From NCBI GenBank assembly GCA_016779165.1, contig JADHOE010000008.1, forward strand, positions 1 through 42,615: DNA of 42,615 nt, given 5' to 3'. The number at the start of each line of letters is the position of its first letter. The stretch's first letter is position 1. A program made the translations under genes and the position numbers. Positions 4,595-26,657 of this stretch are shown in pieces. Under the pieces are notes generated by a model, which ran no database searches, was not told the DNA's origin, and was given only the letters and a program-made list of their open reading frames with translations. This stretch comes from Candidatus Margulisiibacteriota bacterium (lineage in GTDB: Bacteria > Margulisbacteria > Marinamargulisbacteria > UBA817).

Positions 4595-7021
4595 CTATTG
4601 AAGGGACTTCACCAAGGCAATGCTCGTTACCGCATTCGATACAATGGACGTAATGTTGGTTAAAAATTGCAGCCAGTTGAAACTAATCACCACACGCTCT
4701 GGCACATACACAATATCGCCAGGCTCTATCACGTTACTGTTTTGAAACACACGCCCCGAGGACTTAAAAATGTAAATGTTTCGTTTATCGGCGTACTTGC
4801 TAAAGCCACCCACATGGTGAATGTAATCATGCAACGAGTAACTGGGATTATGCGCAATCGAAATGCCTTGCTGCACCCCACCAATCAAATGCACGGATTC
4901 GGGGGCAGTCGGAATCGTTAAGGTATCGCCGTCTTGCACCCTAAAGTTATCTGCTGAGCCCACAAAATTGTCTCGATTCAAATCAATAATTACACGACCA
5001 GAAATGGCACCAACCTTTTTATCCAAATAATCCAAGGCCTCTTTCCTAGCGGTCATCATGATCCCCATCGATACCTGAGAGTCCATCGACAAATTACCCA
5101 AGTGGGTTTGGTCGTAAATAAACCGTTTTTGTTCGTCATCGACAACTTTTTTATGGCCAGCTTTATCTGATTCTTTGACCGATACCCGAGTAAATACAGC
5201 CCCTTTCACATAGGCAGAATCCGTGAACCCACCCGCACGTTGAATCACCTCCGCCAATCGGGTGCCCTTTGCGACTTTGTATTCCCCAGGGAACAACACC
5301 TCACCCGACAAGGTTATGGTGGCCATTTGATCTTTTAGACTATCTTTTTTAACACTTATCCGATCGCCAGCCGTTAATTGAAATGTTGCCATGTCTGATT
5401 GGTTTACATAATGCAATGCCGCTTTTTTACCAGACGACCGGGCAACTTCCACGGCATACATGCTGGCCATTGCCGTGGGCTTTGCCAACAAAATGGCATC
5501 AGACAAGGTCATCTTATCAAAGTATGTGTAATCGCCAGGCGACAATACCTCCCCAATGATTGAAATGCGTTGGGGCTCGATCAATTCACGTTGGTTGTAA
5601 ATGGCCACCACATCTTGGTCTTGAATGCGAAACTCAGTATTGGTTAACTTGGTGCGAAGCAATTCTCGGTGGTCATCAGATGCGTAACGAAACACATGCA
5701 CCGTTGGGTGAGTGTTTTCTTTTACCCCCTTCGCTTGCTTAAGCAATGCCCCCAAGGTTAAGCCATTGTTAAATGCCACTTTTCCGGGCACCTTCACATT
5801 GCCAAGAATGTTCACATAGCCATACGCAATGTTGGGTTTTTTGTTAATCATGATAATATCCCCATTGTTTGCCGGGGTTTCTGCTAATTTAGCCATCACA
5901 GCCGATCGTGACTGCCCTGAAATGCTTTTCACCTGACGAGAAAAACGACCATTAAACCCATTCACATACACATCATTTAAATACGCATTCATGGCAGGGC
6001 CACCCCCATAATTTACCACATCGGCCAAGGTCGTCTTGACGCCCAGCTCAAAAATACCAGGTGTGTTCACCGCCCCGCCAATGGCCACCGTTGGGCCAAT
6101 GGCAGGGACAACAACCACATCCCCCTCGTTAAAATTCATTGCGGGCATGGCCTTGTCCGTTAACACATAGGAATACAAATCAATCTGTCGCTTTTTACCG
6201 TTTGGGCTCAACACCTTAATGTAACGCAACGAGCCAGACTTTTTTACGCCACCAGCCTTGCTTAGAACAGAAAACACCGATTCAAATTTATTCACTGAAT
6301 AGGTGCCCGGTTGCCCCACATGCCCAGAAATCAGCACCATCACCGGCTTTAGTGCGTTTAACTTTAGTTGCGTATCAAAATTAACGTACCGCTTTTTAAG
6401 CGCATTTGTTACTTTTTTATTGGCCTCGCTTAATGTTAAACCGGCCACCACTATGGGCCCAATATTTGGAATAAAAATAGCCCCTTCATTATCCACCGAT
6501 AGTTCCAATATTTGTTCTTTCTTACCGTAAATAAACAGGGTAAAAAAATCACCCGACTGCAACTGATAATTGCTGGGCGCCGCCGTATTGCCATTCGATT
6601 GATACTGATGCTTAAAAAAGTCATAGCCAAACTGACGAAGCGCCGGCGAGGCATTCACTGTAACCCCATGCATGACCTGAACCGCATGGTCGGTATCAAC
6701 ATCCCGGTAATCGCGCTCAATTGCAGACAAATTCAAGGATGGGGCACTGTCTTGTTCAGCAGCGTTGGCTTTAGGGGACTCCTCTTGGGGCTCATCAACC
6801 GTTTCAACACGTTCAATGCCTTGGTTGTCCAGCATCAATCCATCTATCGCATTTGAGTTTGATTGCGTTTGAGTTAAATACCGCTCAGCCAAAATGCGCT
6901 GCTGCGGCAATAACTGCTCCATATTTAACTGAGCGATGTTTGCTTGCCCAAGAACGGCCAATGGCAACATAAAAAGCATAACAATGGCATGAAAAAACAT
7001 GCTCAAATAATAGCATGGCAA
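4595..7021 (-). CDS. Outer-membrane polysaccharide export protein with six SLBB domains (Wza/OPX family)
   Basis: An 808-residue secreted protein, longer than Wza (about 380). A hydrophobic signal segment ends near VLG at residue 25, without a lipobox cysteine. An acidic, low-complexity linker runs to about residue 145. The polysaccharide export domain follows at about 150-225 (YQLQSGDFFTLFIYG). Six SLBB units, each with a GxVxxPG-like turn, run from about 228 to 760. A C-terminal amphipathic stretch (SFNWLQFLTNITSIVSNAV) could be the outer-membrane helix. It would export a capsule or exopolysaccharide together with the Wzz-type protein encoded 2 nt downstream. The ATG at 7000 is an alternative start. 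It follows the FliG-like gene by only 31 bp. Confidence 0.9.
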   Translation of the reverse strand: MPCYYLSMFFHAIVMLFMLPLAVLGQANIAQLNMEQLLPQQRILAERYLTQTQSNSNAIDGLMLDNQGIERVETVDEPQEESPKANAAEQDSAPSLNLSAIERDYRDVDTDHAVQVMHGVTVNASPALRQFGYDFFKHQYQSNGNTAAPSNYQLQSGDFFTLFIYGKKEQILELSVDNEGAIFIPNIGPIVVAGLTLSEANKKVTNALKKRYVNFDTQLKLNALKPVMVLISGHVGQPGTYSVNKFESVFSVLSKAGGVKKSGSLRYIKVLSPNGKKRQIDLYSYVLTDKAMPAMNFNEGDVVVVPAIGPTVAIGGAVNTPGIFELGVKTTLADVVNYGGGPAMNAYLNDVYVNGFNGRFSRQVKSISGQSRSAVMAKLAETPANNGDIIMINKKPNIAYGYVNILGNVKVPGKVAFNNGLTLGALLKQAKGVKENTHPTVHVFRYASDDHRELLRTKLTNTEFRIQDQDVVAIYNQRELIEPQRISIIGEVLSPGDYTYFDKMTLSDAILLAKPTAMASMYAVEVARSSGKKAALHYVNQSDMATFQLTAGDRISVKKDSLKDQMATITLSGEVLFPGEYKVAKGTRLAEVIQRAGGFTDSAYVKGAVFTRVSVKESDKAGHKKVVDDEQKRFIYDQTHLGNLSMDSQVSMGIMMTARKEALDYLDKKVGAISGRVIIDLNRDNFVGSADNFRVQDGDTLTIPTAPESVHLIGGVQQGISIAHNPSYSLHDYIHHVGGFSKYADKRNIYIFKSSGRVFQNSNVIEPGDIVYVPERVVISFNWLQFLTNITSIVSNAVTSIALVKSLQ

Positions 7022-7052: not shown

Positions 7053-7562
7053 TCAGTGTGCTGTTAATTCCAATTCATCCATAATCAGTTGAATGACCTG
7101 GGGTGAAATGGGTGTTTTTTCCACTTTGATTTCGCGGATCAACTCTTTTTTTTCGTCTGGAAGTTGATCCAATATAAATGACCGCTGTTCATCACTCACA
7201 CGGTCCAACACACACGCCAATAATTGCGGGGGCTGCGTCTGAATCTTTTCAGCCAGTGTCATGGTTGTTTTTGGAGACACATCTTCTTTTAAGGGCTGAG
7301 GGGCACTCTTTACCACTGCAATGGGCTCAATCACAGGCTCATCCAAATCATCCGCCTCGTCTTTCGCCAATTTTCGGGCATCAACAGCCTCAAAAAATGT
7401 GGTCATGGCCGATGCAATATCCGCATTTGAAAGGTCCGAAAGCGATTCCAACGAAACCCCATTCAATTTAACCAGTTCTTGAGATGTCAACGACGCCAAC
7501 ACAGGGTACTTCAATTCATCCAATAACTCCACAATTAACCGTGCCTTTAATGTATTATCCAT
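7053..7562 (-). CDS. Short FliG-like protein with N and M domains, no torque domain
   Basis: A 169-residue cytoplasmic protein. Residues about 5-62 (LLDELKYPVLASLTSQELVKL...) resemble the FliG N-terminal domain that binds FliF. Residues about 103-165 resemble the FliG middle armadillo domain: a PPQLLACVL helix, then ILDQLPDEKKELIREI, then PISPQVIQLIMDEL. The two halves are joined by a charged, proline-rich linker. Normal FliG is about 330 residues and ends in a domain with charged residues that contact MotA; that domain is absent. The gene lies 3 bp after fliF, the usual fliF-fliG order. It could cap the MS ring without driving rotation. Divergence is strong, so the domain reading rests on pattern and on gene order. 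Confidence 0.68.
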   Translation of the reverse strand: MDNTLKARLIVELLDELKYPVLASLTSQELVKLNGVSLESLSDLSNADIASAMTTFFEAVDARKLAKDEADDLDEPVIEPIAVVKSAPQPLKEDVSPKTTMTLAEKIQTQPPQLLACVLDRVSDEQRSFILDQLPDEKKELIREIKVEKTPISPQVIQLIMDELELTAH

Positions 7563-7565: not shown

Positions 7566-9296
7566 TTATCCTTTGAGTAACGCTTTCAATTCATCCACCA
7601 AATGCTGGGCATCCTGGCTCGACATGGCCTTTAACTGAATTACGGAACCAAAATCGGCCTTGGTTTTCAAATCATTCACCACATCTTTCTCCGTTAACGG
7701 AACCACTTCTGGGGTTGCATCAATAAGTGTCGGTATATCCTCAGTCAATTCCTCGGGTGGCTCGGGGTCTTTTTTCTTTCGCTTAAACAGCTTTGGAATG
7801 CCAGCTAACACAGAAAAAATGCGTTGAATCACCGATTTTACTAAAAATGCAATCACCATTAATGTGGCCGTTATAACACATCCAATCCCCAATATTGGCC
7901 ACAACCGAACCAAGCGGCCAAACTTATCGCCTACAGTATCCTTCGGTAAAACAATACTTTGCTGCACATCGTCCTTATCCAATGATGGCGTTCCTGCATC
8001 ATCGCGTTTTGGCAAAAATCCGGCCTTTGATACGTGAATGGCATCGCGCGACTCCACATACCCAACCGCGCCCGCAACCGCTTGGGTAATCTGGTCTATT
8101 GTGGCGGCGTTTAAGTCCACTTCCTCAAACTGATCATCCACCACAACACTGGTTACAATTTGCTTAATATCTGGCGCACCCGTTTGACTTACCGAATTCA
8201 AATCAATGGTCACGGCTGTTTTAAAAGACCCCGCTGGCAATACCCCGCTCAATTGATTCAGCGCCTTTTTTTCTAGAACTGTTTCATAGTTGAATTTCAA
8301 TTGAAACCAATCCACCACATCTTCAATGGCCGGAATAATCACCTTTCCGTTGCCAACATTCGCAATGGGTGCCTTCCCTGCCAATTCAATTTCCTCAATT
8401 TTTTTAGTCATTCGATCAAGAACCCCAGTGGACAATACCCGGCCTTCGGTATCAACGACTGATATATTGTCAGGCAAAAGATTTTCTACGGAACTGGACA
8501 CCAACTGCATGATGGCATAAACGGTTTCATCGTTAATGTTCGCCCCATTTCTTCGCTTAATTAAAATCGAAGCCGTTACTGGGGGCTGAGTCACAGCAAA
8601 CAATTTTGTTTCCGGAATAACAATCTCAACATACGCATAATCCACCACGTCGAATTCCATAATGGCCTTTTCCATCTCGCCAGATAAGGCACGTATCAAC
8701 CGTATGCGCTTATCAAATTCAGTCACCCCCAAGTTGGAAGCTTCATCAAAGATTTCATACCCTTTAACCGCAGCGCTGGGCATCCCTTTAATGGCCAAAA
8801 CGTGCTTTGCCTCGTCCAATTGATCTTGATCCACTTGCAAGTCGTATTGCTTACCGTTTTGCACCACATTGTAAGAAATATTCAGATAACTCAGTTCACG
8901 AACAATGGGGGCCAACTGTGTCCCTTCCAATTGCTTGTATAAATCAACATATTTTATTTTTTTCTTTTTCTTTTTTTCAGGCTTTTTGGTCACAATGGAT
9001 GCACCATCAAATGTTGGTGATGTGGGCTGAGCCATTGCTTGGGGTTGTCCTTTCGGTACTGAGTCACCTTTAAATAAGAAAAACGAACTTGCAACAATTA
9101 AAACCACAGCACCACCAAGAATCACTTGGTTGCGTCTAGTGGATAGCAATGGCAAAATGCGATCTTTTATTCGAGTAATAAAGGATGGTGTCCCACCATC
9201 TTGAAATACAGGCTCGTCAGTTAAAAAATCACTATCCAATCCATCGTCGTCTAATGGTTCGTCAAGGTCATCTTCAAGGTTATTTTCTTCAGCCAT
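7566..9296 (-). CDS. fliF: Flagellar MS-ring protein FliF
   Basis: A 576-residue inner-membrane ring protein. An acidic N-terminal tail precedes the first membrane helix at about residues 57-76. A lysine-rich stretch leads into the periplasmic YscJ/FliF ring domain (LYKQLEGTQLAPIVRELSYL; later FDKRIRLIRALSGEMEKAI). A second ring-building domain follows, then the second membrane helix near residues 463-487, and a cytoplasmic tail that should bind FliG. Length and order match FliF (about 550). The polybasic run KKPEKKKKKKIKYVD after the first helix and the very acidic N-terminus are unusual. It forms the base of the rod and houses the export gate. Confidence 0.9.
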   Translation of the reverse strand: MAEENNLEDDLDEPLDDDGLDSDFLTDEPVFQDGGTPSFITRIKDRILPLLSTRRNQVILGGAVVLIVASSFFLFKGDSVPKGQPQAMAQPTSPTFDGASIVTKKPEKKKKKKIKYVDLYKQLEGTQLAPIVRELSYLNISYNVVQNGKQYDLQVDQDQLDEAKHVLAIKGMPSAAVKGYEIFDEASNLGVTEFDKRIRLIRALSGEMEKAIMEFDVVDYAYVEIVIPETKLFAVTQPPVTASILIKRRNGANINDETVYAIMQLVSSSVENLLPDNISVVDTEGRVLSTGVLDRMTKKIEEIELAGKAPIANVGNGKVIIPAIEDVVDWFQLKFNYETVLEKKALNQLSGVLPAGSFKTAVTIDLNSVSQTGAPDIKQIVTSVVVDDQFEEVDLNAATIDQITQAVAGAVGYVESRDAIHVSKAGFLPKRDDAGTPSLDKDDVQQSIVLPKDTVGDKFGRLVRLWPILGIGCVITATLMVIAFLVKSVIQRIFSVLAGIPKLFKRKKKDPEPPEELTEDIPTLIDATPEVVPLTEKDVVNDLKTKADFGSVIQLKAMSSQDAQHLVDELKALLKG

Positions 9297-9311: not shown

Positions 9312-9827
9312 CTAAACTGGAATTTGTTGTATTTCTTTAAATGTTTGAACCGCGGATTGCACAATGGTTGTCACCATGGATACTGCCAAATTTAACTTTG
9401 CTGTTTCAAGAACAACTTCATCTTCAGACACCTCACCCTTCACAAACCCATCCATTAAATCGTTCACTTTAAACTCTTGGCGACTCACATTTTGCAACGA
9501 CCGAATGGCATTGTCTAAAAATATTTGCAGTGGAACAATGGCAATATCCTTCGGGTTAGCGTTTCCCGCATTTTGAACAACACCTTGAGTCAACTGTGCC
9601 ATACTGGCTTTATCAATTCGTTCAAGGGAGATTGTTTCGTTAAGGGTGGCCGTTCTCTTTTTTCGCTCTTTTACCAACCATTCATTGGTATCGGATTGCG
9701 CAGCCATGGCCGACGCTTCTTTAAACACCGAATTGAATTCGTCCAATAGGCCAGGGCTAAGCAACTGCTTGCCAATGGCTTGTTTTGCGGCGCCTTGTGC
9801 CTGTTGAACATGCTTAATATCGGCCAT
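9312..9827 (-). CDS. fliE: FliE, MS ring-rod junction protein with an N-terminal extension
   Basis: A 171-residue protein. Its last 55 residues (VNDLMDGFVKGEVSEDEVVLETAKLNLAVSM... ending in TFKEIQQIPV) match the conserved FliE C-terminal helix pair. FliE is usually about 100 residues, so about 70 residues of extra sequence precede the core. No signal peptide is present, unlike FlgB and FlgC beside it. FliE joins the MS ring to the proximal rod. The start codon overlaps the flgC stop as TAATG, giving translational coupling. Confidence 0.85.
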   Translation of the reverse strand: MADIKHVQQAQGAAKQAIGKQLLSPGLLDEFNSVFKEASAMAAQSDTNEWLVKERKKRTATLNETISLERIDKASMAQLTQGVVQNAGNANPKDIAIVPLQIFLDNAIRSLQNVSRQEFKVNDLMDGFVKGEVSEDEVVLETAKLNLAVSMVTTIVQSAVQTFKEIQQIPV

Positions 9828-10267
9828 TACTTTAACAACTCCAATGTGTTTTGAAACATTTGACGAGACGATTTAAATGCCGTTGTATTGGCTTCATATA
9901 ACAAATTTGCATAAGAAAGCGTGACCATCTCATCATTTAGTTCGAAGTTAGGCGTTCTAAGCACCCCATTTTCATCGGCAAACACATGCGATGGGTCCAA
10001 TATTTGGCCAAATGGCGCATCCGATTCCATAATGCCAGCCGCACGAACCCCATCTTTATCTGGCACCACAACCACGTATTTTTTTCGGTAGGGCTCCCCC
10101 CTGTCCGTCATGTGGGTCGACACGTTTGCAATGTTCTCTGCAATGGTCCTTAACCTGTATTTTTGAACGAGCATTCCATTTCCAGCCACATTTAAGGCAT
10201 CAATGGCACCTGTTTTAGCCCCAAGGCATACTATGGAGCACATCAAAAGCATTAATAATGGTTTCAT
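9827..10267 (-). CDS. flgC: Proximal rod protein FlgC with an apparent Sec signal peptide
   Basis: A 146-residue protein. From residue 19 on it aligns with FlgC: GAIDALNVAGNGM, IAENIANVST with GEPYRKK, and the C-terminal helix ANTTAFKSSRQMFQNTLELL. The first 18 residues (MKPLLMLLMCSIVCLGAK) are an added hydrophobic leader that looks like a signal peptide, whereas ordinary FlgC begins at the GAIDAL-equivalent. There is no other Met between the leader and the core, and the ATG overlaps the flgB stop (TAATG), so the leader is hard to remove by moving the start. FlgC forms the proximal rod in the periplasm. Confidence 0.9.
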   Translation of the reverse strand: MKPLLMLLMCSIVCLGAKTGAIDALNVAGNGMLVQKYRLRTIAENIANVSTHMTDRGEPYRKKYVVVVPDKDGVRAAGIMESDAPFGQILDPSHVFADENGVLRTPNFELNDEMVTLSYANLLYEANTTAFKSSRQMFQNTLELLK

Positions 10268-10653
10268 TAGCCGCCCTTTCCCAAGGTCACCACCTTTTTG
10301 GTGATGCCAATTTTTGTACTTAATAACCGAACATAGGCACTATGTTTCAATCGAATTTTAGTTGATCGGACCATTTCATCATCCACATTCACAACATCCA
10401 ACATGGACGAGTCCCCGTATAATCGAATCGCCTCCTGAATTTCATCTTCATAGCGAATGGGCCGAAATCCAGGGGTCGATGCATTTGCAATGTTGTATGC
10501 CGTTGCTTTCTGCTTCTTGTTCATATCGTAAATGGCATCCTCAAGACGAACGGAGGTTGAATCAAACAGTACATTTGAAATAATATTTTCGCCATGCACA
10601 ACAGTTCCAAACATAACCAATACCACCGCCATAAACGTCATCTTACAATTCAT
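10267..10653 (-). CDS. flgB: Proximal rod protein FlgB with an apparent Sec signal peptide
   Basis: A 128-residue protein. The core (LFDSTSVRLEDAIYDMNKKQKATAYNIANASTPGFRP) carries the rod/hook family motif NIANxxTPG. It is preceded by about 21 residues (MNCKMTFMAVVLVMFGTVVHG) with the n-, h- and c-regions of a Sec signal peptide and a likely cleavage after VHG. Typical FlgB is 130-140 residues and starts directly at the core helix. The gene lies 57 bp after the sigma-factor gene, the largest gap in the train, and is coupled to flgC by TAATG. It would form the first rod segment above FliE. Confidence 0.88.
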   Translation of the reverse strand: MNCKMTFMAVVLVMFGTVVHGENIISNVLFDSTSVRLEDAIYDMNKKQKATAYNIANASTPGFRPIRYEDEIQEAIRLYGDSSMLDVVNVDDEMVRSTKIRLKHSAYVRLLSTKIGITKKVVTLGKGG

Positions 10654-10710
10654 TTTAATTTGTTTCTCTTTCTTTCACAATCATATCCATCGCCAACCAT
10701 TCCACACACA

Positions 10711-11451
10711 TTAGGTATTTAACAACTCTTTTAGCCGTAACAAAATACGATTATGATTCCGGCTAATGGTGGCCTCTGACCGATTCAACTCCACAGAAAT
10801 CTCTTTCTGCGTTAGGCCTCGCCTATAAAATAGATCGATAAATGTCACGTCTTCCTTAGGCAAAGATAATACAACCTTGTTCAATAATTGAAATTCATCA
10901 TTCATTTCGTATTCAGCATCAAGTGTTTGCTGATTATCTGGAATGTTATCGCCATGGGCATCCAACACCGTTTCCAACGATACCATATACGACGTGGCGG
11001 CTATGGACAGTAAGTTTTTGGGCACCACTGGCTTTTCACCGTGCTCTAAATTGCTATCAATGGCCTGAGATACACGCTCTTTTATTTGTTCAAGAAATTG
11101 ATCATGTTGGCCGGATGATTTTGCCCGCCACTCTCGTCGGATTAAATCAAGCATTTCACCTCGCACTCGAATATTGGCATACGTTTTAAATTGAGTATCT
11201 TTCGATTGATCAAACCGCCGAAACGCTTTCAATAACCCCTCAAACCCAACGCTGTGCAAATCATTATAGTCAATGGTGGAGGGCAGCTTTTTCTTCGAAA
11301 ATAAGCTAGAGGCTACGGCATCAACAATGTAAGCATGAGACTCCAACATCGCTTTCTCTTCATTGGATACGATTGGCTGAGAAGTAACCGCAGCATTCAT
11401 TTTTTCTGGGTCAATCGGTTGCGCATCTACAGAGGCGTCAGGTTTAGTCAA
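10711..11451 (-). CDS. FliA-type RNA polymerase sigma factor (sigma-28 family)
   Basis: A 246-residue group 3 sigma factor. Region 2 is clear at about residues 60-110 (DLHSVGFEGLLKAFRRFD, then FKTYANIRVRGEMLDLIRREW), close to FliA. Region 3 is weak. Region 4 at about residues 190-245 contains the LTQKEISVELNRSEATISRNHN helix-turn-helix. In flagellated bacteria this sigma factor transcribes late flagellar genes. Here it is encoded inside the basal-body operon, overlapping flgJ by 8 bp, so it is made together with the structural proteins. No anti-sigma factor FlgM is seen nearby. Confidence 0.85.
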   Translation of the reverse strand: MTKPDASVDAQPIDPEKMNAAVTSQPIVSNEEKAMLESHAYIVDAVASSLFSKKKLPSTIDYNDLHSVGFEGLLKAFRRFDQSKDTQFKTYANIRVRGEMLDLIRREWRAKSSGQHDQFLEQIKERVSQAIDSNLEHGEKPVVPKNLLSIAATSYMVSLETVLDAHGDNIPDNQQTLDAEYEMNDEFQLLNKVVLSLPKEDVTFIDLFYRRGLTQKEISVELNRSEATISRNHNRILLRLKELLNT

Positions 11452-11779
11452 TGGCCATCACCCCAGTCAAATCAATAAAGTTTGAGTCCACCAGTTGATT
11501 GGCAAATTCATTAATCATCAATTGATTCACCATGCCATAATCTCTGGTATTTTCTTGGGAATAATATAAATGATTTGATTTAAACATCTGATTCAAAAAT
11601 ACCTCTTTAACAAAATAGGTTTGGAATTGTTTTTTAATCTGCTCCCGATCATCTGGGTCTGGGTCCGGCTCTTTAGTGGCCATGTAATTTAACAAATCAT
11701 AATTCATTTGCACTTGGCCATGGATGCTCGAACAACAACCAACCCCAATCAGCAAACAAATAATACCCCATTTTTTCAC
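11444..11779 (-). CDS. FlgJ-like rod-binding (rod cap) protein with signal peptide, no muramidase domain
   Basis: A 111-residue protein. Residues about 45-108 (REQIKKQFQTYFVKEVFLNQMF ... MINEFANQLVDSN) match the rod-binding domain of FlgJ (PF10135), found alone in many bacteria. The C-terminal muramidase of enterobacterial FlgJ is absent. The N-terminus MKKWGIICLLIGVGCCSSIHG is a signal peptide; its two cysteines do not make a good lipobox, so cleavage after IHG is more likely. Normal rod-binding proteins travel by type III export. It lies 1 bp after flgI, and its 3' end overlaps the sigma-factor gene. Confidence 0.78.
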   Translation of the reverse strand: MKKWGIICLLIGVGCCSSIHGQVQMNYDLLNYMATKEPDPDPDDREQIKKQFQTYFVKEVFLNQMFKSNHLYYSQENTRDYGMVNQLMINEFANQLVDSNFIDLTGVMAID

Positions 11780-11780
11780 A

Positions 11781-12863
11781 TCAAATCACCTCGATGGTTG
11801 CAACCAACGCCCCAGCCTCTTCCATGGCTTGCAAAATGGATATCAAATCCCTTGTGTTTACACCAATGTCATTTAATACATCCACCAAACTTGATAACGA
11901 ATTATCAGGCTTCATGTAATGCACCTTAGACGCCTCTTCTTTGACTTCAATCTCAGGAGCAGCATTCGGAATATCCGTATCATATTGGCTGGCGTTCTTA
12001 CTGTTCTCAGCAATTCGTATTGAAATGCTGCCATGGGTAATGGCCACAGGCAATAATCGCACGTTTTCTCCAATCACCACCACACCAGTTTTGGAATTAA
12101 CCACAACCTTTGAGGTTGACTCGGGCGTAATTTTAGTATTTTCAATTTTTTCAATAATATCCACATATGGCATTTCTGCCATCTCAGCAATTGGAATTTG
12201 AATGGATCCTGCGTCAATGGCCGCCACTTTCTTGAACCCATTGTTTTTTAACGCTTTGACAACTTTTGATGACATTGTAAAATCAGGCTTATTCAACACT
12301 AAGGTGACATTGAGTTGATCTTCTCGGGTAACTTTTACCACTTGCTCCACAATAGCGCCGTTTGGAACACGGCCAGAGGTTGTTTGATTTTTCTTATAAT
12401 TTTCTCGACCGGATTTACCAGACACCCCACCCACCACAATTTGCCCTTGAGCAACCGCATACGTTTCAAAATCAGGCCCTTTCATGGGTGTCATTAGCAA
12501 CGTTCCGCCAGACAAGCTTGTTGCATCGCCCAATGACGACACGCTCACATCCAACCGCTGGCCTGTTCTTGCGTACGGGGGAAGGTTCATGGTTACAATC
12601 ACTGATGCCGCATTTCGTGATTTAAAATCATTTTTATCGGGAGTAATCCCCATTTTTTTTAGCAAATTTGTTAACGCCTTTTCGGTAAACACTGACCGTT
12701 GTGTATCGCCTGTATTTCGCAGCCCCACCACCAACCCATACCCAATCAACTGGTTATCCCTCGACTCAATCACCCTGGAAATGTCTTTCACACGAACCTT
12801 TGCCTCTTCACAAAAAGATACCCCCACCAACACCATCAATAAAATTACAACTTGCTTAATCAT
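11781..12863 (-). CDS. flgI: Flagellar P-ring protein FlgI
   Basis: About 360 residues, the normal FlgI length. A signal peptide (MIKQVVILLMVLVGVSFCEE) is followed by the hallmark VRVKDISRVIESRDNQLIGYG and GLRNTGD, then NAASVIVTMNLPPYARTGQRLDVSVSSLGDA. FlgI forms the periplasmic ring around the rod at the peptidoglycan. I chose the ATG at 12863, which overlaps the flgH stop as TAATG and gives a clean signal peptide. A TTG four codons upstream (12875) is the alternative. Its presence argues for a diderm cell. Confidence 0.95.
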   Translation of the reverse strand: MIKQVVILLMVLVGVSFCEEAKVRVKDISRVIESRDNQLIGYGLVVGLRNTGDTQRSVFTEKALTNLLKKMGITPDKNDFKSRNAASVIVTMNLPPYARTGQRLDVSVSSLGDATSLSGGTLLMTPMKGPDFETYAVAQGQIVVGGVSGKSGRENYKKNQTTSGRVPNGAIVEQVVKVTREDQLNVTLVLNKPDFTMSSKVVKALKNNGFKKVAAIDAGSIQIPIAEMAEMPYVDIIEKIENTKITPESTSKVVVNSKTGVVVIGENVRLLPVAITHGSISIRIAENSKNASQYDTDIPNAAPEIEVKEEASKVHYMKPDNSLSSLVDVLNDIGVNTRDLISILQAMEEAGALVATIEVI

Positions 12864-13477
12864 TAGAACACCCAATTAAAAAAATTTGATAAGACCCCTG
12901 GGGTTTGTTTTGAATTTACCACCCCTTTTCCTTTTAACGAAATATTAAATTGTGCAATTTGATGCGATTCAATGGTATTTTTTGAATTGATATCATCTGG
13001 GCGTACAATGCCAGATATTTGAATAATTTCAGAGTCATTATTGACATCCACCAACCGTTCACCACTAATCACCAAATGGCCATTGGGTAACACTTGCGTC
13101 ACAACACAACTCACAATGGCTTCAACTTTGCTTTTTCGCGTGGTTTGCCCCACACCTGAATAATTATCGTTGCCACGAATGCTGTAATCTTGCATCTTCC
13201 TCATGGAATTGTTTTGATCAGTATCTAAGGAATACTGATCAAATGTATCAAAGAAGTTAGCCCCCACATTGGATTGCTTTCGTGTGGTTGTCCCTGCTTC
13301 TTGCACAGCCGTGGACTCTGCAGAAATCATGACAGTTACCAAATCTCCCACCTTAAACATGCGTTGATTATTCAACATTGATGTCGCGTTCGCTTTACTC
13401 CAAAGCGAATCCGCATGGGCAAATGAACCCAAAACCACCAAATTACAAACTAGAAATAATAACTGTTTTTTTATCAT
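12863..13477 (-). CDS. flgH: Flagellar L-ring protein FlgH
   Basis: A 204-residue protein with a signal peptide ending in AHA, immediately followed by the conserved SLW tripeptide. The FlgH motifs FKVGDLVTVMISAESTA, VTQVLPNGHLVISGER and SGIVRPDDINSKNTIES are all present. Many FlgH proteins are lipoproteins, but no lipobox cysteine is seen here. It builds the outer-membrane ring through which the rod passes. The start overlaps flgA by 35 bp. Confidence 0.95.
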   Translation of the reverse strand: MIKKQLLFLVCNLVVLGSFAHADSLWSKANATSMLNNQRMFKVGDLVTVMISAESTAVQEAGTTTRKQSNVGANFFDTFDQYSLDTDQNNSMRKMQDYSIRGNDNYSGVGQTTRKSKVEAIVSCVVTQVLPNGHLVISGERLVDVNNDSEIIQISGIVRPDDINSKNTIESHQIAQFNISLKGKGVVNSKQTPGVLSNFFNWVF

Positions 13478-14126
13478 GCAACATCCCTAACAATACTTTG
13501 TTGTTTTTTTTTAATTGTAACTTAACATTGTCACCAACACTTCCATTTTGTAAAACTTCTGCATCCAAAGTCAATGTAATCGCATTGCGCTGCACAATTG
13601 CAGTCACAGCATCCCCTTTCACTACATCCGGCATCTTTTCAATCATCCACGACTCAATGATTTCGCCAGCATCCACGTACCGCCTAAATTGAAGCCCTTC
13701 GCCAATACGACTGATGCTATGCGGGGTTAGTGCCGCCAACGGGATTTCTTTTTGTTCCAAATTATGAGCCCCCACCTTATCCCCTTTAACAGCACGGTGC
13801 TTCACAGCCATCACGTTGGCCGATCCACGAATTCGAAACACCTTTGTGATTCGCTTTTTAAAATTATCATTTTCAAAGGCATCAAACTTAATGATAATGT
13901 CGCCAGCCAAGGGCATTTTTTTTGGCCATTCAAAGGATAACACATCACACCCCTCTGGAAACTCAGTCCCTTTGGCTTCAATTGTTAAGTCATTAAAGTC
14001 AATGGCCGAATAGCGGGCCTCAATTTGGGCCAACACGTTCTTCTTAATTAAATCAGATGCGCCATCGCACGATAGTTGAATCGCCATTGCAGGCAATGAC
14101 AACACCAGAAGAAGAGCCATCTTCAT
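13443..14126 (-). CDS. flgA: P-ring assembly chaperone FlgA
   Basis: A 227-residue periplasmic protein with a short signal peptide (MKMALLLVLSLPAMA). The C-terminal SAF-type domain is recognisable: VKHRAVKGDKVGAHNLEQKEIPL, RYVDAGEIIESWMIEKMPDVVKGDAVTAI and VGDNVKLQLKKNNKVLLGML. FlgA helps FlgI assemble into the P ring. The start is coupled to the flgG stop by TAATG. Its presence beside flgI and flgH means that both rings of the basal body are probably built. Confidence 0.88.
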   Translation of the reverse strand: MKMALLLVLSLPAMAIQLSCDGASDLIKKNVLAQIEARYSAIDFNDLTIEAKGTEFPEGCDVLSFEWPKKMPLAGDIIIKFDAFENDNFKKRITKVFRIRGSANVMAVKHRAVKGDKVGAHNLEQKEIPLAALTPHSISRIGEGLQFRRYVDAGEIIESWMIEKMPDVVKGDAVTAIVQRNAITLTLDAEVLQNGSVGDNVKLQLKKNNKVLLGMLHDKKTVIISSL

Positions 14127-14929
14127 TAGGTCATGCCCATTCCAGCCTTCAGCATTTGCTCACCGGCCTGCATCGCTTTACCCAACAGTTCCAACCCTTT
14201 TTGAGTCATGATCATGTCCATCATTTCTTTAATGATATCAACATTTGAATTTTCAATTGAAAATTGCACCACCTGCCCGGTTGCATTACGCCCTGGAATT
14301 TCTACCATGGCTTCTCCAGAGTCCAGGGTTTCTTGATAAAAATTATTTCCAACATTTTTTAATCCATCTGGATTATTGAATCGGGCCAATAACATTTGAC
14401 CAATCTCTCTTGGCATTGAATCGTTATTCACAGTGGCAAATACGCGACCCTCTGGGTCTATTGTAATTTGTGTTGCGTTGGTTGGAATGCGTATTGGTGG
14501 GTCAAGCACATACCCAGACTGACTCATTAAGTTACCGTCCACATCCTTTGCCAAATTACCCGCCCGACTGTATACAATATCCCCATCAGGTTTTCGAAAT
14601 TGAAAAAACCCTTCGCCTCGAATTGCAACATCCATATCACTTTTTGTAACCTGCAAGTTTCCTTCTGAAAAATCCGTTGAAATGGCCTCAATTCGGACCC
14701 CTGTCCCAAGTTCAATGCCTCGTTTTTTCTTGATGTATGGGTTCAGATCTTCATCCTGAGCATATTTCACCTCAGCTTCTTGTAAGATTACGGGGAATAA
14801 TGTGGCCAATTCACAACGTGTTTGTTTGTACCCAGGCGTTTGAGCATTTGCAATATTGTTGGTGATATTGAACATCATTTTTTGGTAGGTCCCAAACCCT
14901 GACCGCGAAATGTTAAACTGTTGAAACAT
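14126..14929 (-). CDS. flgG: Distal rod protein FlgG (no signal peptide)
   Basis: A 267-residue protein of normal FlgG length. It starts MFQQFNISRSGFGTYQKMMF and continues NITNNIANAQTPGYKQTR, the conserved D0 helix and type III export region. The core has DVAIRGEGFFQF and YSRAGNLAKDVDGNLMSQSGY, and the C-terminal helix is ENSNVDIIKEMMDMIMTQKGLELLGKAMQ. Unlike FlgB, FlgC and FlgF in the same train it has no hydrophobic leader. Its ribosome site is the strongest in the region, which fits the roughly 24-copy distal rod. Confidence 0.95.
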   Translation of the reverse strand: MFQQFNISRSGFGTYQKMMFNITNNIANAQTPGYKQTRCELATLFPVILQEAEVKYAQDEDLNPYIKKKRGIELGTGVRIEAISTDFSEGNLQVTKSDMDVAIRGEGFFQFRKPDGDIVYSRAGNLAKDVDGNLMSQSGYVLDPPIRIPTNATQITIDPEGRVFATVNNDSMPREIGQMLLARFNNPDGLKNVGNNFYQETLDSGEAMVEIPGRNATGQVVQFSIENSNVDIIKEMMDMIMTQKGLELLGKAMQAGEQMLKAGMGMT

Positions 14930-14934
14930 TTATT

Positions 14935-14942
14935 CCTCCTTT
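14935..14942 (-). promoter_or_regulatory. Perfect Shine-Dalgarno site of flgG
   Basis: On the minus strand AAAGGAGG lies 5 nt before the flgG ATG. Most other genes in the train have weak or no visible Shine-Dalgarno sequence and rely on stop/start overlaps, so FlgG is probably translated most strongly. Confidence 0.75.
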
Positions 14943-14943
14943 A

Positions 14944-15738
14944 TTACTGTGGATTGGCTGCTTGCACCGCCAACGACATGCTTTTTATATACGCCTTTAC
15001 CATTTTCACATTGGCCTCATGCCCATTTTTCCATTCTGGCACCAACCCTATGTACCCCTTTGTAATTGATGACTCCGACACATACCCTTGAAGTATACCA
15101 ACATTTGCCGGTCGATACTTGTCTTGGTTCTCCCAATCCTCTTTCGAAAAATAAAATATTTTATGGTTAAAAGATTTCAAATCGTGATTATTTTTTGGCC
15201 ATTCAACACGAAACGTATCAACAATACTTCCGTTTTGATAAATCACCCCATTGCGATCCACATCCACGCCCCCACCTGATAAATAAATATACCCATTTTC
15301 ACCCAACACAGGAAAATGCTCTTCCATTGTTACCAATCGACCGGTGTCATCCAACTCAAATCGACCATCTTGCGTGTAGGCTGGCCACTGCCCTGGAATT
15401 TCAATCACAAAAAACCCCTTCCCTTCAATGTAAAAATCCAACGCCTTATTGGATTGGCGCGGGTTCCCCTGAGACAAACGGTAAAACAACACCCGCTTCA
15501 TGCTTCGGGATTTATTGTCGTAATAATACCCCACCCCGGACTCCTTAGTCCCAGGCACATTTTGAATGGCTGTATATACAATGTAAGATTTCATCGCATC
15601 CATAAAGCCGCCCATTGACGCAGAGTTCAACTTCAGTGTAGGGTTCACCACATCATCATAAATTTCGTAATGGAGTGGGTTATGCTCTGCTGCAGCAACT
15701 TTAAGGGATAACAATAACATGAATATGTGTAATCTCAT
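14944..15738 (-). CDS. Divergent FlgF/FlgG-family rod protein with signal peptide
   Basis: A 264-residue protein. The middle (LDFYIEGKGFFVIEIPG, YTQDGRFELDDTGRLVTMEEHFPVLGENGYIYL) is the FlgE/F/G core domain. The C-terminus (MVKAYIKSMSLAVQAANPQ) is a weak version of the rod D0 helix. The N-terminus is odd: a signal peptide (MRLHIFMLLLSLKVAAA) replaces the usual first residues, and the canonical NNxANxxTPG motif is missing, only VPGTKESG remaining. By position ahead of flgG it is the FlgF equivalent. The start overlaps the previous gene by 4 bp (ATGA). Confidence 0.8.
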   Translation of the reverse strand: MRLHIFMLLLSLKVAAAEHNPLHYEIYDDVVNPTLKLNSASMGGFMDAMKSYIVYTAIQNVPGTKESGVGYYYDNKSRSMKRVLFYRLSQGNPRQSNKALDFYIEGKGFFVIEIPGQWPAYTQDGRFELDDTGRLVTMEEHFPVLGENGYIYLSGGGVDVDRNGVIYQNGSIVDTFRVEWPKNNHDLKSFNHKIFYFSKEDWENQDKYRPANVGILQGYVSESSITKGYIGLVPEWKNGHEANVKMVKAYIKSMSLAVQAANPQ

Positions 15739-16130
15739 TTTTTTATTCGCTTAAATTTTGATCTCAATTTCAACCGATTTTTTGCTTTTTGTTCCAAGAA
15801 AAAGATAAATGCCAATATTTCGGCAACCAATTTAAATAAATGCGGAGGTATTTCGCTTTTAATCTTAAGGGATGATAGCAGTTTTGACAATTTTTCATCC
15901 TCAATCATTGGGATTTCATTTTCTTCTGCAAGGGTCAAAATTTCCGTGGCAATCCTTCCTCGGCCAGACGCCACAATAGTTGGGGCCTTTTTCTTGGATG
16001 CATCATATTTTATGGCAATGGCCTGCAAGTTTTCTTTGTCTTTGGATGATAGCTCATCAATATGAGACCGAAGCTTTTTTTCAAGCGCTTTTCTTTTTTT
16101 TAAAATTTGGTCTTTTCTTTGATTCTTCAT
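15735..16130 (-). CDS. Stand-alone FlhB C-terminal-domain protein (FlhX/YlqH-like)
   Basis: A 131-residue protein with a basic N-terminal segment. It then matches the cytoplasmic C-terminal domain of FlhB/YscU: APTIVASGRGRIATEILTLAEENEIPMIEDEKLSKLL and EIPPHLFKLVAEILAFIFFLEQ. It has neither the four membrane helices of FlhB nor the NPTH autocleavage loop. Such short proteins (YlqH in Bacillus) often sit next to a FliK-like gene, as here, and can act in export substrate switching. It overlaps both neighbours by 4 bp (ATGA). A full FlhB would be expected elsewhere in the genome. Confidence 0.85.
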   Translation of the reverse strand: MKNQRKDQILKKRKALEKKLRSHIDELSSKDKENLQAIAIKYDASKKKAPTIVASGRGRIATEILTLAEENEIPMIEDEKLSKLLSSLKIKSEIPPHLFKLVAEILAFIFFLEQKAKNRLKLRSKFKRIKK

Positions 16131-17359
16131 ATTTCGGTTTGTATTCGTTTCACTTCAGAAATGTCCTGTGATGGGGCAATAAACTTTTGAATATTGATGG
16201 TTTTTCTGGACGATTGAAACGCCTCTAAACTGTAATCATACTTTTTTAAGTTATCGACCAGCTCCTTGCGGAATGAATTGATATGAGACACCGCATGATC
16301 TTGGTCAGAATGTATGGTGCACCACACCTTGAACCCCATTACAACAACAATAACTGTGATTTTCCCCATGGTCTCAGATTCCATATTTACAATAATCTTT
16401 TCCTGAGGCGAAGTGTCCTGAGCTTTTTGCTTGCTCTGCTTTAGTACTGATTGTTTTCTTAACAGCAGCTCAATAAATGCCTGCGCAGTTAATGGGTTTG
16501 GAATTTGAAAGTAATGAAATGATTCCAATAACCCCAAGGGCTGTTTAATGGAGTCTTGACTCAAAATAATTTGCCCCATTAAATGGGCGTTCAAGCCACC
16601 CAAGGATTTAATATAATTTAAAAAAATATCCGACTTAATTCCAAACCGTTGCCCCAGCCCTTTAAGAAAAGACGCCATCGCCATGGAATCATCCAATGCA
16701 CTTAACGGCTGCGATAGCCACTGGTTGGCCTTCTCGATTTTTTTAAACTGCTTTAACTGATCATTAAACTCATCAAATACACTCAAAAAAGATTGAAGCC
16801 CCGGATGATTTTTTAAGGCATCTTGCAAAACAGCCATCATGTTTTTCTGCATCCCTGACAATTGATTCAATGATTTTGAAATGGTGGACTGTTTGGTCAA
16901 TAACTGGTTCAATATTCCAACATCATCAGCTGCTTCCCCCAGGCCTTTAGACACCAAAAGCACCGCGCTCTCCCTGGCCTCCTTGGAATTTTTGCCCTTA
17001 AGCAATTTATTAATTAGAGCAAAGCTATCTTCAGATATCTCTATCCCATGAACCGCCATTAGCAATGCCAATTCTTTATTATTATCTGTTAATGGTATAT
17101 CTATTGTTGCCAATTGCTTGGAAATATCCTCTGGGCCCAATTGAGACACCCGTGTTGGAAGCGTGGCTTGCACCTGCGACGGAGAACTAGGGGTATCCCC
17201 TGTTTTTTGAATACTCGCAGACGAAGAAGCGTCGGCAGCGCCAACATTTCTATTGAGGCTAAATACTTCCTCAGAGCTTTTAGGTCCCTGAGGCTTTCCT
17301 GATGGCCAATTCGCCCCTCCCTTGGAAAGCCCCCCAGAATTAACACCACCTAAACCCAT
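16127..17359 (-). CDS. FliK/YlqG-like hook-length control protein
   Basis: A 410-residue soluble protein. The N-terminal 80 residues are low-complexity (Gly, Ser, Pro). The middle is helical and rich in leucine and glutamine. Residues about 310-395 (NMESETMGKITVIVVVMGFKVWCTIHSDQDHAVSHINSFRKELVDNLKKYDYSL) fit the FliK C-terminal (Flg_hook) pattern. Pairing with a short FlhB-C protein is the YlqG-YlqH arrangement. It would measure or signal rod/hook length to the export switch. I chose the ATG at 17359, which has a good GGAAGG ribosome site; a longer frame from 17398 would overlap ctaB. Confidence 0.6.
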   Translation of the reverse strand: MGLGGVNSGGLSKGGANWPSGKPQGPKSSEEVFSLNRNVGAADASSSASIQKTGDTPSSPSQVQATLPTRVSQLGPEDISKQLATIDIPLTDNNKELALLMAVHGIEISEDSFALINKLLKGKNSKEARESAVLLVSKGLGEAADDVGILNQLLTKQSTISKSLNQLSGMQKNMMAVLQDALKNHPGLQSFLSVFDEFNDQLKQFKKIEKANQWLSQPLSALDDSMAMASFLKGLGQRFGIKSDIFLNYIKSLGGLNAHLMGQIILSQDSIKQPLGLLESFHYFQIPNPLTAQAFIELLLRKQSVLKQSKQKAQDTSPQEKIIVNMESETMGKITVIVVVMGFKVWCTIHSDQDHAVSHINSFRKELVDNLKKYDYSLEAFQSSRKTINIQKFIAPSQDISEVKRIQTEI

Positions 17360-17375
17360 TGAGTACCTTCCATAG

Positions 17376-18233
17376 TTAATGCAGCAATATATCGACAATG
17401 ATGAATGTAAACCATAATGGTAAATAAATTATCGATAAAATAAACAATTTCTTTGCATTGTTTTTTAAATCACGAACGCTTTGGATCATGACCCATAGAA
17501 AACAAAGGGAAATCATTAGCATACCCACGGCGTAAACCCCACTTAGAAAACGCATTAAAAAAGGAACAAACGATGTTGCCACCATCAAAAATGAAAACAC
17601 TATAATTTGACGCTTTGTGGCAGGCACTCCCCCCTCTTGATTTGGCAACATTTTAAACCCGGCCGCCTTGTAATCATCAAAATACATTATGGATAACGCG
17701 TAAAAATGAGGTATTTGCCAACAAAACAAGGTAAAAAAGAATGCGACAACCACCGTGTGAATGGGTGTTCCTGTTGCAACCCACCCGCCCAACAATGGTA
17801 GTGCGCCAGGTAAGGCCCCAACATGGGTATTCAACCAAGAGTATCGCTTAAGAGGCGTATAAATACCAACGTAAATAACGACTGTCGCCAATGATACCAA
17901 CAATGTTAATAAGTTGATCTGAGCAACAAAAAAAAGACCAACCAAAAACGTAATCATTACAATAGCACGTGCTTCAAATAAAGACAGCTTATTCACCACC
18001 AACTCTCGATCTTTTGTTCGCCCCATTAACGCATCCAGTTTAACCTCTAATATATTATTTGCGCCGCAAGCTGAGGCCGAAAAAAAATAAGTAGCTAACA
18101 ATAAATACAAAAAAGAAAGGGTAACATCTATGGATTGAATCGCCAAAAAATAACCAATGGATACAGTCAACAATTGAGCACGACTAATGCCGGGCTTTGT
18201 AAACGAAACATAATTTAACATCTGTTGAATCAT
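17376..18233 (-). CDS. ctaB: Protoheme IX farnesyltransferase (heme O synthase)
   Basis: A 285-residue UbiA-family prenyltransferase with about nine membrane helices. The first acidic motif is NNILEVKLDALMGRTKDR. The CtaB hallmarks YTPLKRYSWLNTHVGALPGALPLLGGW and YFDDYKAAGFKMLPNQEGG are present. It adds a farnesyl group to heme b to make heme O, the precursor of heme A needed by the caa3 oxidase encoded on the opposite strand to the right. It is transcribed away from the oxidase genes and heads the basal-body train, 16 bp before the FliK-like gene. Confidence 0.95.
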   Translation of the reverse strand: MIQQMLNYVSFTKPGISRAQLLTVSIGYFLAIQSIDVTLSFLYLLLATYFFSASACGANNILEVKLDALMGRTKDRELVVNKLSLFEARAIVMITFLVGLFFVAQINLLTLLVSLATVVIYVGIYTPLKRYSWLNTHVGALPGALPLLGGWVATGTPIHTVVVAFFFTLFCWQIPHFYALSIMYFDDYKAAGFKMLPNQEGGVPATKRQIIVFSFLMVATSFVPFLMRFLSGVYAVGMLMISLCFLWVMIQSVRDLKNNAKKLFILSIIYLPLWFTFIIVDILLH

Positions 18234-20662: not shown

Positions 20663-21310
20663 ATGAGTCAGCAAATTTTTCCTAAATGGGCAAACACACT
20701 TCCGATAATTGTTCTTATCGTTTTGGTAATAACTCTTGGGTTGGTTGTTCATTTATTTTGGTACTGGTTATCTCCAAAACATCTTAATGTTGGGTACCAA
20801 CCCAAACAACCTATTCCATTTTCTCATGCACTGCATGTTGAAAATGTGGGTTTGGATTGCCGCTATTGCCACTCTAACGTAGAAAAAGCAGCACATTCAA
20901 ACATACCCGCAACGGAAACATGCATGAATTGCCACAAACAAATTAAAACCGATTCCCCCCACATCAAAAAACTAACAAAACATTACGAAAACAATGAACC
21001 AATTGAATGGGTAAAAGTACACATGTTGCCAGATTATGTTTACTTTAATCATGCCGCACACACAACAGCTGGCGTTTCGTGTGTGCAATGTCACGGCCAA
21101 GTCAACAAAATGGATGTGGTTTACCAAGCCAAACCCCTTAGTATGGGATGGTGCTTGGAATGTCACAGAGAACCAGAAAAATTCATATGGCCAAAAGAAA
21201 AAATAACAGACCTAAACTGGCGACCAACAAATCAAATAAACCTTGGTTTACAATTAAAGGAAACATATAATGTTAATCCTGGAGAGGCGTGTAGCGTATG
21301 TCACAGATAA
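20663..21310 (+). CDS. actA: Alternative complex III subunit ActA, pentaheme cytochrome c
   Basis: A 215-residue membrane-anchored cytochrome. One N-terminal helix (about residues 12-36) anchors it. Five CxxCH heme-binding motifs start at Cys66, Cys87, Cys140, Cys164 and Cys210; the last is only one residue from the C-terminus. Additional histidines can serve as second ligands. In alternative complex III, ActA carries electrons from the iron-sulfur subunit towards cytochrome c. It overlaps actB by 13 bp. Confidence 0.93.
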   Translation: MSQQIFPKWANTLPIIVLIVLVITLGLVVHLFWYWLSPKHLNVGYQPKQPIPFSHALHVENVGLDCRYCHSNVEKAAHSNIPATETCMNCHKQIKTDSPHIKKLTKHYENNEPIEWVKVHMLPDYVYFNHAAHTTAGVSCVQCHGQVNKMDVVYQAKPLSMGWCLECHREPEKFIWPKEKITDLNWRPTNQINLGLQLKETYNVNPGEACSVCHR

Positions 21311-24228: not shown

Positions 24229-25603
24229 CGAAGAAATCCAGCGGGTCCCTCAAGTACTGGGAAAAAAGTCGTTTAAAAAGGTAACAGATATCATTGCAAA
24301 ACCATCGGAAAGTCCGGCACCAAAATGGTGGGTAATTGGGCTTCTTGGCTCAATGTCATTGGCCGCATTGTTGTTTTCACTTATTGGTTACTTGATTTGG
24401 GATGGGGTCGGTGTTTGGGGGCTAAATAACCCTGTTGGTTGGGGATTTGCAATAGTTAACTTTGTTTTTTGGGTGGGGATTGGGCATGCCGGAACATTAA
24501 TTTCAGCCATTCTATTTTTATTCCGTCAAAAATGGCGCACATCAATCAATCGATTTGCAGAGGCCATGACTATTTTTGCAGTTATTTGTGCCGGTATTTT
24601 TCCAGGAATTCACGTCGGCCGAATTTGGGCCGCCTACTATCTATTTCCGATCCCAAATTCAATGGCCATGTGGCCAAACTTTAAAAGCGCTCTTCTTTGG
24701 GATGTTTTTGCTGTTAGTACATACTTCACAGTCTCTCTATTATTCTGGTATGTCGGATTAATTCCTGATTTAGCAACATTTAGAGATCGTGCAACAACAA
24801 AAGTTAAACGATTTACCTATGGTTTATTTGCATTGGGATGGAACGGCTCAAATCGGCACTGGATGAACTACGAAAAAGCATATTTAATTTTAGCCGCAAT
24901 AGCAACTCCGCTTGTACTATCCGTTCACTCGATTGTTAGCTTTGATTTTGCAACGTCAAATCTTCCGGGCTGGCATACAACCATATTCCCGCCTTATTTT
25001 GTTGCAGGGGCTGTATTTTCTGGATTTGCAATGGTTTTAACATTGCTTATCATTGCACGAAAAATATTTAAGCTAGAAGACCTTATAACAATAAGGCATC
25101 TTGAAAACATGAATAAATTTATTCTAGCTACAGGTACAATGGTTGGGTATGCCTACGCAATGGAGTTCTTTATGGCATGGTACTCTGCCAACCAATATGA
25201 AGCATTTGCGTTCATAAATAGAGCGTTTGGTCCGTACGCATGGGCTTATTGGATTATGGTTTCATGCAATGTAATTTCACCACAGTTTTTCTGGTTTAAA
25301 AAACTAAGAACAAACATACCAATCATGTTTGTCATTTCAATATTTGTTAACATTGGCATGTGGTTTGAACGTTTTGTAATTACGGTCACATCACTCCATC
25401 GTGATTTTTTACCATCATCGTGGGATTACTACATTCCAACTTGGGTAGATATTATGACATTTGTTGGCAGCTTTGGTTTATTTTTCACGCTTTTCCTATT
25501 GTTTTTAAAATACTTGCCAATAATTTCAATTTCAGAAGTCAAAGGAGTAATGGAAATTGCAGATCCCCATTACTATGATCATCACACGGAGGACAAACAA
25601 TGA
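24215..25603 (+). CDS. actC: Alternative complex III subunit ActC, NrfD-like quinol-binding membrane protein
   Basis: A 462-residue polytopic protein with about ten membrane helices. [35 protein letters not shown] and the conserved [15 protein letters not shown] are ActC/PsrC-type signatures. This subunit holds the menaquinol site and helices that may move protons. It overlaps actB by 14 bp and actD by 4 bp, so the complex is probably made stoichiometrically. Confidence 0.92.
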
Positions 25604-26130
25604 CATTTCACGGATATCTGTGCGAAGTCGATAACCCAAAAGAACTTGTTACGTTATCAAAAAAGGTATGTGACTCAGGGTACACAAAATTTGATACATA
25701 TTCTCCGTTTCCAATTCACGGTATTGATAAAGCCATGGGTATTCCAGCAAGTATCTTGCCATGGTTATCGTTAACTGGGTGCATTATTGGATTAAGTGTA
25801 GCACTGATTCTTCAAATATGGACAAACGGAATTGACTACAAAATCCCTCTATCAGGGAAACCATACATATCCCTGCCAGCATTTATTCCAGTAACATTCG
25901 AGTTGACCATATTATTCACTGCATTTTTTACAGTATTTGGTATGTTTGCACTGAATAAACTACCAACTTGGTACCAGCCAATCTTTAACAATAAGTCATT
26001 CAAAAAAGCAACATGCTCAGGTTTTTTTCTATCAATATCGTGTTTAGATAATAATTTTGATGAGATTAAAACTCATTCATTTCTAGAAAAAGCCGGAGCA
26101 AAAAATATTGAAAGAATTGAAGAAAAATGA
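25600..26130 (+). CDS. actD: Alternative complex III subunit ActD (DUF3341)
   Basis: A 176-residue protein. An N-terminal soluble part ([43 protein letters not shown]) is typical of DUF3341. Two membrane helices follow at about residues 55-75 and 100-120, then a short cytoplasmic tail. It is a structural subunit of alternative complex III. ATGA overlaps join it to both actC and actE. Confidence 0.9.
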
Positions 26131-26654: not shown

Positions 26655-26657
26655 GTT

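Follow-up and report, generated by a model that had tools for sequence, protein, structure and literature searches.

Sec-type leaders on rod proteins of a flagellar-type operon in the Margulisiibacteriota

How might a flagellar rod be built when several of its subunits carry the signals of another export pathway? This question is raised by contig JADHOE010000008.1 of a Candidatus Margulisiibacteriota bacterium (assembly GCA_016779165.1), which we analysed from position 1 to 42,615 (42,615 nucleotides, hereafter the window) and which belongs to a metagenome-assembled genome (MAG) of Ca. Marinamargulisbacteria of 1.15 Mb and 71% completeness. A single operon on the minus strand, running from 17398 to 7053 of the window, brings together a basal-body set: the FliF MS ring, the FlgB, FlgC, FlgF and FlgG rod proteins and the FlgH and FlgI rings (Table 1). 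To our knowledge, all rods studied are built inside-out via type III export. The initial annotation of this DNA had proposed that FlgB, FlgC, the FlgF-like protein and FlgJ start with signal peptides of the general secretory (Sec) pathway, and that part of the rod is thus secreted by Sec and assembled from the periplasm. Based on sequence comparisons, we consider it likely that the product of the operon is a type III apparatus derived from a flagellum and probably non-rotary, with Sec as the route taken by its proximal rod subunits. The routing of part of the rod through Sec appears well supported because of the conservation of the leaders, the controls available within the operon, a phylum-wide gradient, the rod fold of FlgC and the decay of a type III targeting residue in FlgB; Sec use itself, cleavage and assembly from the periplasm are what we infer from these.

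Leaders on four rod proteins and their conservation in the class

All four leaders were found where they had been described: MKPLLMLLMCSIVCLGAK on FlgC, MNCKMTFMAVVLVMFGTVVHG on FlgB, MRLHIFMLLLSLKVAAA on the FlgF-like protein and, with a GTG start, MKKWGIICLLIGVGCCSSIHG on the FlgJ-like protein, each of the type with n-, h- and c-regions. The FlgC leader cannot be removed by shifting the start, as had been claimed: in-frame stops lie upstream, and ATG, GTG and TTG are all missing from residues 10-26, a stretch bounded by residue 9 of the h-region and residue 27 of the conserved core. The further claim that the starts are fixed by overlaps with neighbouring stops holds for the junctions of FlgB with FlgC (1 base) and of FlgF with the stand-alone C-terminal domain of FlhB (FlhBc; 4 bases); the start of FlgJ lies 1 base past the stop of FlgI, and FlgB, which follows fliA after a gap of 57 bases, is the only one of the four whose start is not pinned by a neighbour.

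The named near relatives of the window genome are one MAG of Ca. Marinamargulisbacteria, whose FlgC is 83% identical, and one unclassified bacterial MAG. FlgC relatives are present in 22 of 26 related genomes, and about 17 families of the class preserve the operon order. We applied one identical leader rule (hydrophobic 9-mer, its position, and c-region) to all proteins of 21 loci of the class, with controls taken from the operon itself. As positive controls we took the classical Sec substrates FlgA, FlgH and FlgI; FlgG, FliE, FliA and FlhBc were the negative ones. Leaders were detected on FlgB in 19 of 21 loci, on FlgC in 20 of 21, on FlgF in 17 of 19 and on FlgJ in 16 of 20. The positive controls carried them in 56 of 60 cases (FlgA 18/19, FlgH 19/20, FlgI 19/21) and the negative ones in a single case out of 75 (FlgG 1/19, FliE 0/20, FliA 0/20, FlhBc 0/16), which also bears out the description of FlgG and FliE as leaderless. 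Since the rod leaders recur in 16-20 of 19-21 orthologous loci although their own sequences have diverged strongly, at about the frequency seen for FlgA, FlgH and FlgI and almost never in the negative controls, they are not due to chance, and we regard their existence and their conservation across the class as confirmed. Matches to the rule in FliG (the hydrophobic helix of FliG_N), in some FliA proteins from outside the class and in the FlgB of locus L184 (upstream of the true start) were set aside as false positives.

A weight matrix made from about 15 textbook Escherichia coli signal peptides, which yields relative values only, gave median scores of 3.7 for the rod leaders, 3.4 for FlgA, FlgH and FlgI, and -3.6 for the negatives (here including FliK). 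The rod leaders did not differ from the three Sec substrates (p=0.98) and scored higher than the negatives (p=6e-18). Absolute scores obtained with this E. coli-derived matrix are low even for FlgH and FlgA, and were therefore used only against the in-operon controls. Judged by scores equal to those of FlgA, FlgH and FlgI, the rod leaders appear to have the n-, h- and c-region make-up of substrates of Sec and signal peptidase I, and it is by these predicted leaders that FlgB, FlgC and FlgF depart from canonical rod proteins, which are leaderless and exported by the type III secretion system (T3SS).

The proteins behind the leaders belong to rod families to varying degrees. Among PDB chains, FlgC matched those of FlgC at 3.8e-31. 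In an AlphaFold model of the whole precursor (pLDDT 83), the leader forms a helix of its own ahead of the canonical hairpin and beta domain. This model aligned to the proximal-rod FlgC of Salmonella with a TM-score of 0.85 (128 alignment columns, rmsd 2.1), so the mature protein is predicted to have the rod fold. As the leader lies directly before the canonical N-terminus, its cleavage would free an ordinary FlgC. FlgB gave a weaker but clear rod-family match by profile (8.2e-5 against FlgB chains in the PDB). Among the FlgJ orthologues, three of 13 matched the Rod-binding family PF10135 (best 7.9e-5), and the FlgJ-like protein of the window had no significant family match of its own. Conservation of both FlgB and FlgJ is low.

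A gradient through the phylum

With the FlgC-core profile, relatives were found in 68 of the 74 genomes of the phylum, and the operon is also present in other families of it. FlgB and FlgC have no leader in families f22-f30, nor has FlgF in the four loci showing it. In families f18-f20 (genomes G027-G034) the leader is found on FlgC and on neither FlgB nor FlgJ, with one genome (G034) having a leader on FlgF as well. Family f21 carries leaders on both FlgB and FlgC, and on FlgJ too in the one full locus examined. The eight genomes of f18-f20 (loci L171-L185) each encode two flagellar systems: a canonical operon, leaderless and with a full-length FliG of 337-343 residues, and a second one with the leader on FlgC and, where seen, a short FliG. 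They are also the only genomes of the phylum with flagellin. In the FlgC tree, f18-f20, f21, f22-f30 and the canonical copies each form a supported group, as does the class except for one long-branched sequence (L042), and f21 is joined to the class with a support of 96/86. The leader states require three changes on this tree for FlgC and two for FlgB; leaders would therefore have been gained (or lost) rarely, and then kept.

FlgB offers a view on the older export signal. In Salmonella, F45 of FlgB is essential for recognition by the C-terminal domain of FlhB, and every substitution impaired rod assembly via a secretion defect (PMC9307174). The equivalent Phe is present in 35 of 35 leaderless FlgB proteins, including that of L026, the sole scorable leaderless member of the class, and in only three of the 19 leader-bearing FlgB proteins of the class; the window FlgB has Tyr at this position. 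This suggests that the type III targeting residue decayed in leader-bearing members of the class.

The machine and its possible assembly

The genes flhA, fliP, fliQ, fliR and fliI, which the initial annotation had left to be checked, were found in the class: FlhA is present in 22, FliP in 20, FliM/N in 22 and FliI in 24 of the 27 class genomes, and, from our reading of the sequences, FliQ and FliR lie beside FliP in loci L056 and L060, and a full-length FlhB lies beside FliP and FlhA. FliH, FliI and FliJ are present in the window genome itself. A system devoid of an exporter, as suggested by the negative search for FlhA in that genome, was ruled out by the FlhA and FliP of its relatives. With FlhA, FliP and FliI found class-wide, the route would therefore be mixed, with no replacement of the type III exporter. 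The C-terminal domain of FlhB forms a small gene of its own in the operon, and relatives additionally have the full-length FlhB beside FliPQR.

Flagellin was found in none of the 27 class genomes, including the six near-complete ones, by searches that recovered it in four flagellated genomes used as positive controls, and Pfam Flagellin_N had no match in the 66 phylum genomes outside G027-G034. The FliG orthologues of the operon consist of FliG_N and FliG_M only and miss the torque domain FliG_C, which occurs elsewhere in the class genomes in separate proteins. With flagellin lacking throughout these 27 genomes and the torque domain missing from FliG, the apparatus is probably not a swimming flagellum. 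We consider it unlikely that this is a truly motile flagellum, its filament made of an unrecognised protein and its stator working through a different FliG_C protein, in which case the export route of the rod would be the sole novelty. MotB_plug is found in 21 of the 27 class genomes, and the MotA/MotB-like pairs, the membrane proteins with FliG_M and FliG_C in the same genomes and the hook-like genes of a conserved second cluster would fit such a flagellum, but the FliG_C protein beside MotAB has a leader and a transmembrane-like segment of its own and its gene lies apart from the operon, and the Flagellin_N search speaks against a filament.

This protein, of 475 residues with cytoplasmic FliG_M and FliG_C domains, is encoded together with MotA and MotB on another contig of the window genome (L128, G000:C15, 1626-4514), a cassette that looks like a separate small rotary-motor module without ties to the rod operon. 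In many class genomes, comparably sized FliG_C proteins lie next to MotB_plug matches on the same contigs. The second cluster (L101, G000:C28, 68-5434; also L100, L102, L103, L107, L112 and L114) combines an FlgE/F/G-like protein that lacks a leader with a 131-residue protein, three larger unknown ones and either one or two small ones of about 90 and 100 residues; we regard these as candidates for axial or secreted components of this machine. A needle-like identity of the small proteins S90 and N102 was dropped (AlphaFold hairpin with pLDDT 64, no PDB match), and no homologue of the needle protein SctF was found, the profiles of S90 and N102 and the fold of S90 having no match in the PDB.

The leaders could also be uncleaved signal anchors, inserted by Sec, that would keep the subunits of the proximal rod tethered to the membrane beside the MS ring. 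The long hydrophobic cores of several orthologues (9-residue means of 2.5-4) and the weak cleavage motif of the window FlgC (score 2.1) would be in line with anchors, which are nonetheless unlikely: many orthologues have A-x-A followed by Q right after the h-region, at the end of the leader, the cores are of signal-peptide length, and the leader scores equal those of FlgA, FlgH and FlgI. That the operon is a remnant, its Sec-exported proteins being repurposed in the periplasm with no rod built, is rather improbable. Such a fate might explain the absent flagellin, the short FliG and the poor conservation of FlgB and FlgJ, but would hardly leave an operon order kept in about 17 families, a FlgC with its rod fold and conserved core, and the P and L rings, FliE, FlgG and the export gate all retained. 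Early flagellar subunits are known to open the type III gate by a short hydrophobic N-terminal signal (PMC8983047), and it is very improbable that the leaders are enlarged versions of this signal, unrelated to Sec. The small hydrophobic element at the extreme N-terminus of known rod and hook subunits and the T3SS gate genes present here are compatible with this idea. Yet the known element consists of a few small non-polar residues, with neither n/h/c structure nor a signal-peptidase site; FlgG and the hook-like FlgE/F/G have to pass the gate and are leaderless; and the FlhB-binding residue of FlgB is lost where leaders occur. An artefact of wrong starts or MAG errors, for which one could invoke the single incomplete MAG and the GTG start of FlgJ, can be dismissed in view of the same leaders in independent genomes and in other classes, and of the missing start between leader and core in the window FlgC.

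We therefore return to a type III apparatus with Sec-delivered rod subunits, and propose that the operon encodes a flagellum-derived machine with MS ring, rod, P ring and L ring. FlgB, FlgC, the FlgF-like protein and the FlgJ-like cap would be made as precursors with Sec signal peptides, cut off in the periplasm by signal peptidase, and the mature proteins would enter the rod from the periplasmic side, as P- and L-ring proteins do. The proximal rod would assemble on FliE and FliF. The leaderless FliE, FlgG and hook-like FlgE/F/G would still pass the FlhA/FlhB/FliPQR gate, FlgG and the hook-like subunits doing so after the proximal rod. Sec routing of the FlgJ cap would agree with an organisation of the proximal rod from the periplasmic side. 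Rotation and filament have probably been lost, and we infer that the machine acts as a secretion or surface apparatus. On a wider scale, we lean towards an ancient, flagellin-less flagellar secretion machine in the Margulisiibacteriota, whose rod subunits moved stepwise from type III export to Sec, FlgC first and then, in whichever order, FlgB, FlgJ and FlgF, with the inner segment built from the periplasm and the outer one threaded through the channel. The idea of a building route different from that of known flagella would stand as the best, unproven explanation, with the amendment that the exporter is kept and that the product is probably not a swimming flagellum.

Several points weigh against this proposal. 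FlhA, FliP and FliM/N were undetected in the window's own MAG, most likely through incompleteness because a genome of the same genus (G001) has them. MotA/MotB-like genes occur in most class genomes, and rotation might have been retained. The leader-bearing FlgB proteins of f21 keep the F45-equivalent Phe (6/6), a pattern to be expected of a leader acquired before the older signal decayed. The F45 contrast, for which a plain Fisher test gives p 5e-11, amounts to two or three independent contrasts on the tree, which permit no significance, and is for this reason supportive and not proof. The leaderless FlgG must cross a channel walled by externally delivered FlgB and FlgC, which calls for a co-ordinated order of assembly, and the weak point would be the closing of this externally supplied wall around the export gate.

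Compared to the canonical basal body and rod (Salmonella FlgB, FlgC, FlgF and FlgG; 7cg0, 7bin), the system shares the fold and core of FlgC, the rod and ring gene set including P and L rings, the export gate and the ATPase complex, and differs by Sec leaders on FlgB, FlgC, FlgF and FlgJ, no flagellin, and a FliG without torque domain. Spirochaete FlaA is a Sec-exported flagellar sheath protein unrelated to rod subunits; it parallels the present case as an axial-type component delivered by Sec, though to the sheath and not the rod. The injectisome (non-flagellar T3SS) is likewise a non-motile type III apparatus, the likely function here, but the present system has flagellar-type L and P rings and a FlgG rod, and needle homology was not found. 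In Buchnera, filament-less basal bodies have kept the type III gate and lost flagellin, and a secretion role was proposed (PMC8109811). This is a recent reduction, for which Sec leaders on rod proteins are not reported, whereas the present system is class-wide and without flagellin across most of the phylum. Our search of the open-access literature, with subscription papers outside its scope, returned no report of Sec-exported or Sec-dependent rod proteins and no paper dealing with both Marinamargulisbacteria and flagella. If the proposal is correct, a proximal rod can assemble from the periplasm, its building uncoupled from the exporter, which would add a second way of building a type III axial structure, and the phylum would hold a natural series of intermediates for how flagella become other secretion machines. 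This class of uncultured marine bacteria, of which one member, Ruthmannia eludens (PMC6784892), is known as an intracellular symbiont of an animal, would also gain a candidate protein-delivery apparatus.

Operon layout and neighbouring genes

Table 1. Genes of the flagellar operon in the window, listed in operon order, with the matches on which their assignment is based
Feature	Coordinates	Strand	Evidence and remarks
FliK-like protein	16127..17398	-	weak PF02120 match at C-terminus, 0.014; syntenic orthologues
Stand-alone FlhB C-terminal domain (early-substrate binding domain; FlhBc)	15735..16130	-	PF01312 positions 262-335, 1.7e-19
FlgF-like rod protein precursor	14944..15738	-	NCBIfam flgF 1.9e-19; leader about 15738-15688 (residues 1-17)
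FlgG distal rod protein, without leader, presumed type III substrate	14126..14929	-	TIGR02488 7.5e-73
FlgA P-ring chaperone (positive control)	13443..14126	-	PF13144 7.2e-18
FlgH L-ring protein (positive control)	12863..13477	-	PF02107 8.9e-48
FlgI P-ring protein, classical Sec substrate (positive control)	11781..12875	-	PF02119 1.7e-108
FlgJ-like rod-cap protein, without muramidase domain	11444..11779	-	synteny after flgI; leader about 11779-11717 (residues 1-21), IHG^Q
FliA-type sigma factor (cytoplasmic negative control)	10711..11451	-	Sigma70_r2 1.8e-11
FlgB rod protein precursor	10267..10653	-	NCBIfam FlgB 6.1e-9; leader about 10653-10591 (residues 1-21), VHG^E
FlgC rod protein precursor	9827..10267	-	NCBIfam FlgC 8.7e-29, residues 23-146; leader about 10267-10217 (residues 1-17)
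FliE, without leader	9312..9827	-	PF02049 2e-4, just under cut-off; synteny
FliF MS-ring protein	7566..9296	-	PF01514 1.5e-46
Short FliG without torque (FliG_C) domain	7053..7562	-	FliG_M 1.2e-5

Several members of the class (L026, L028, L029, L030 and L033) have a tandem pair of FlgG-like genes. Directly downstream of the operon in the window (4595-7021) lies the gene of an 808-residue polysaccharide-export (Wza-like) protein with at least four SLBB domains. Farther away, our reading of the sequence from 20663 to 38122 points to an aerobic respiratory block, with an alternative-complex-III-like cluster, cytochrome c oxidase, and Mrp-type antiporter genes beside a membrane pyrophosphatase.

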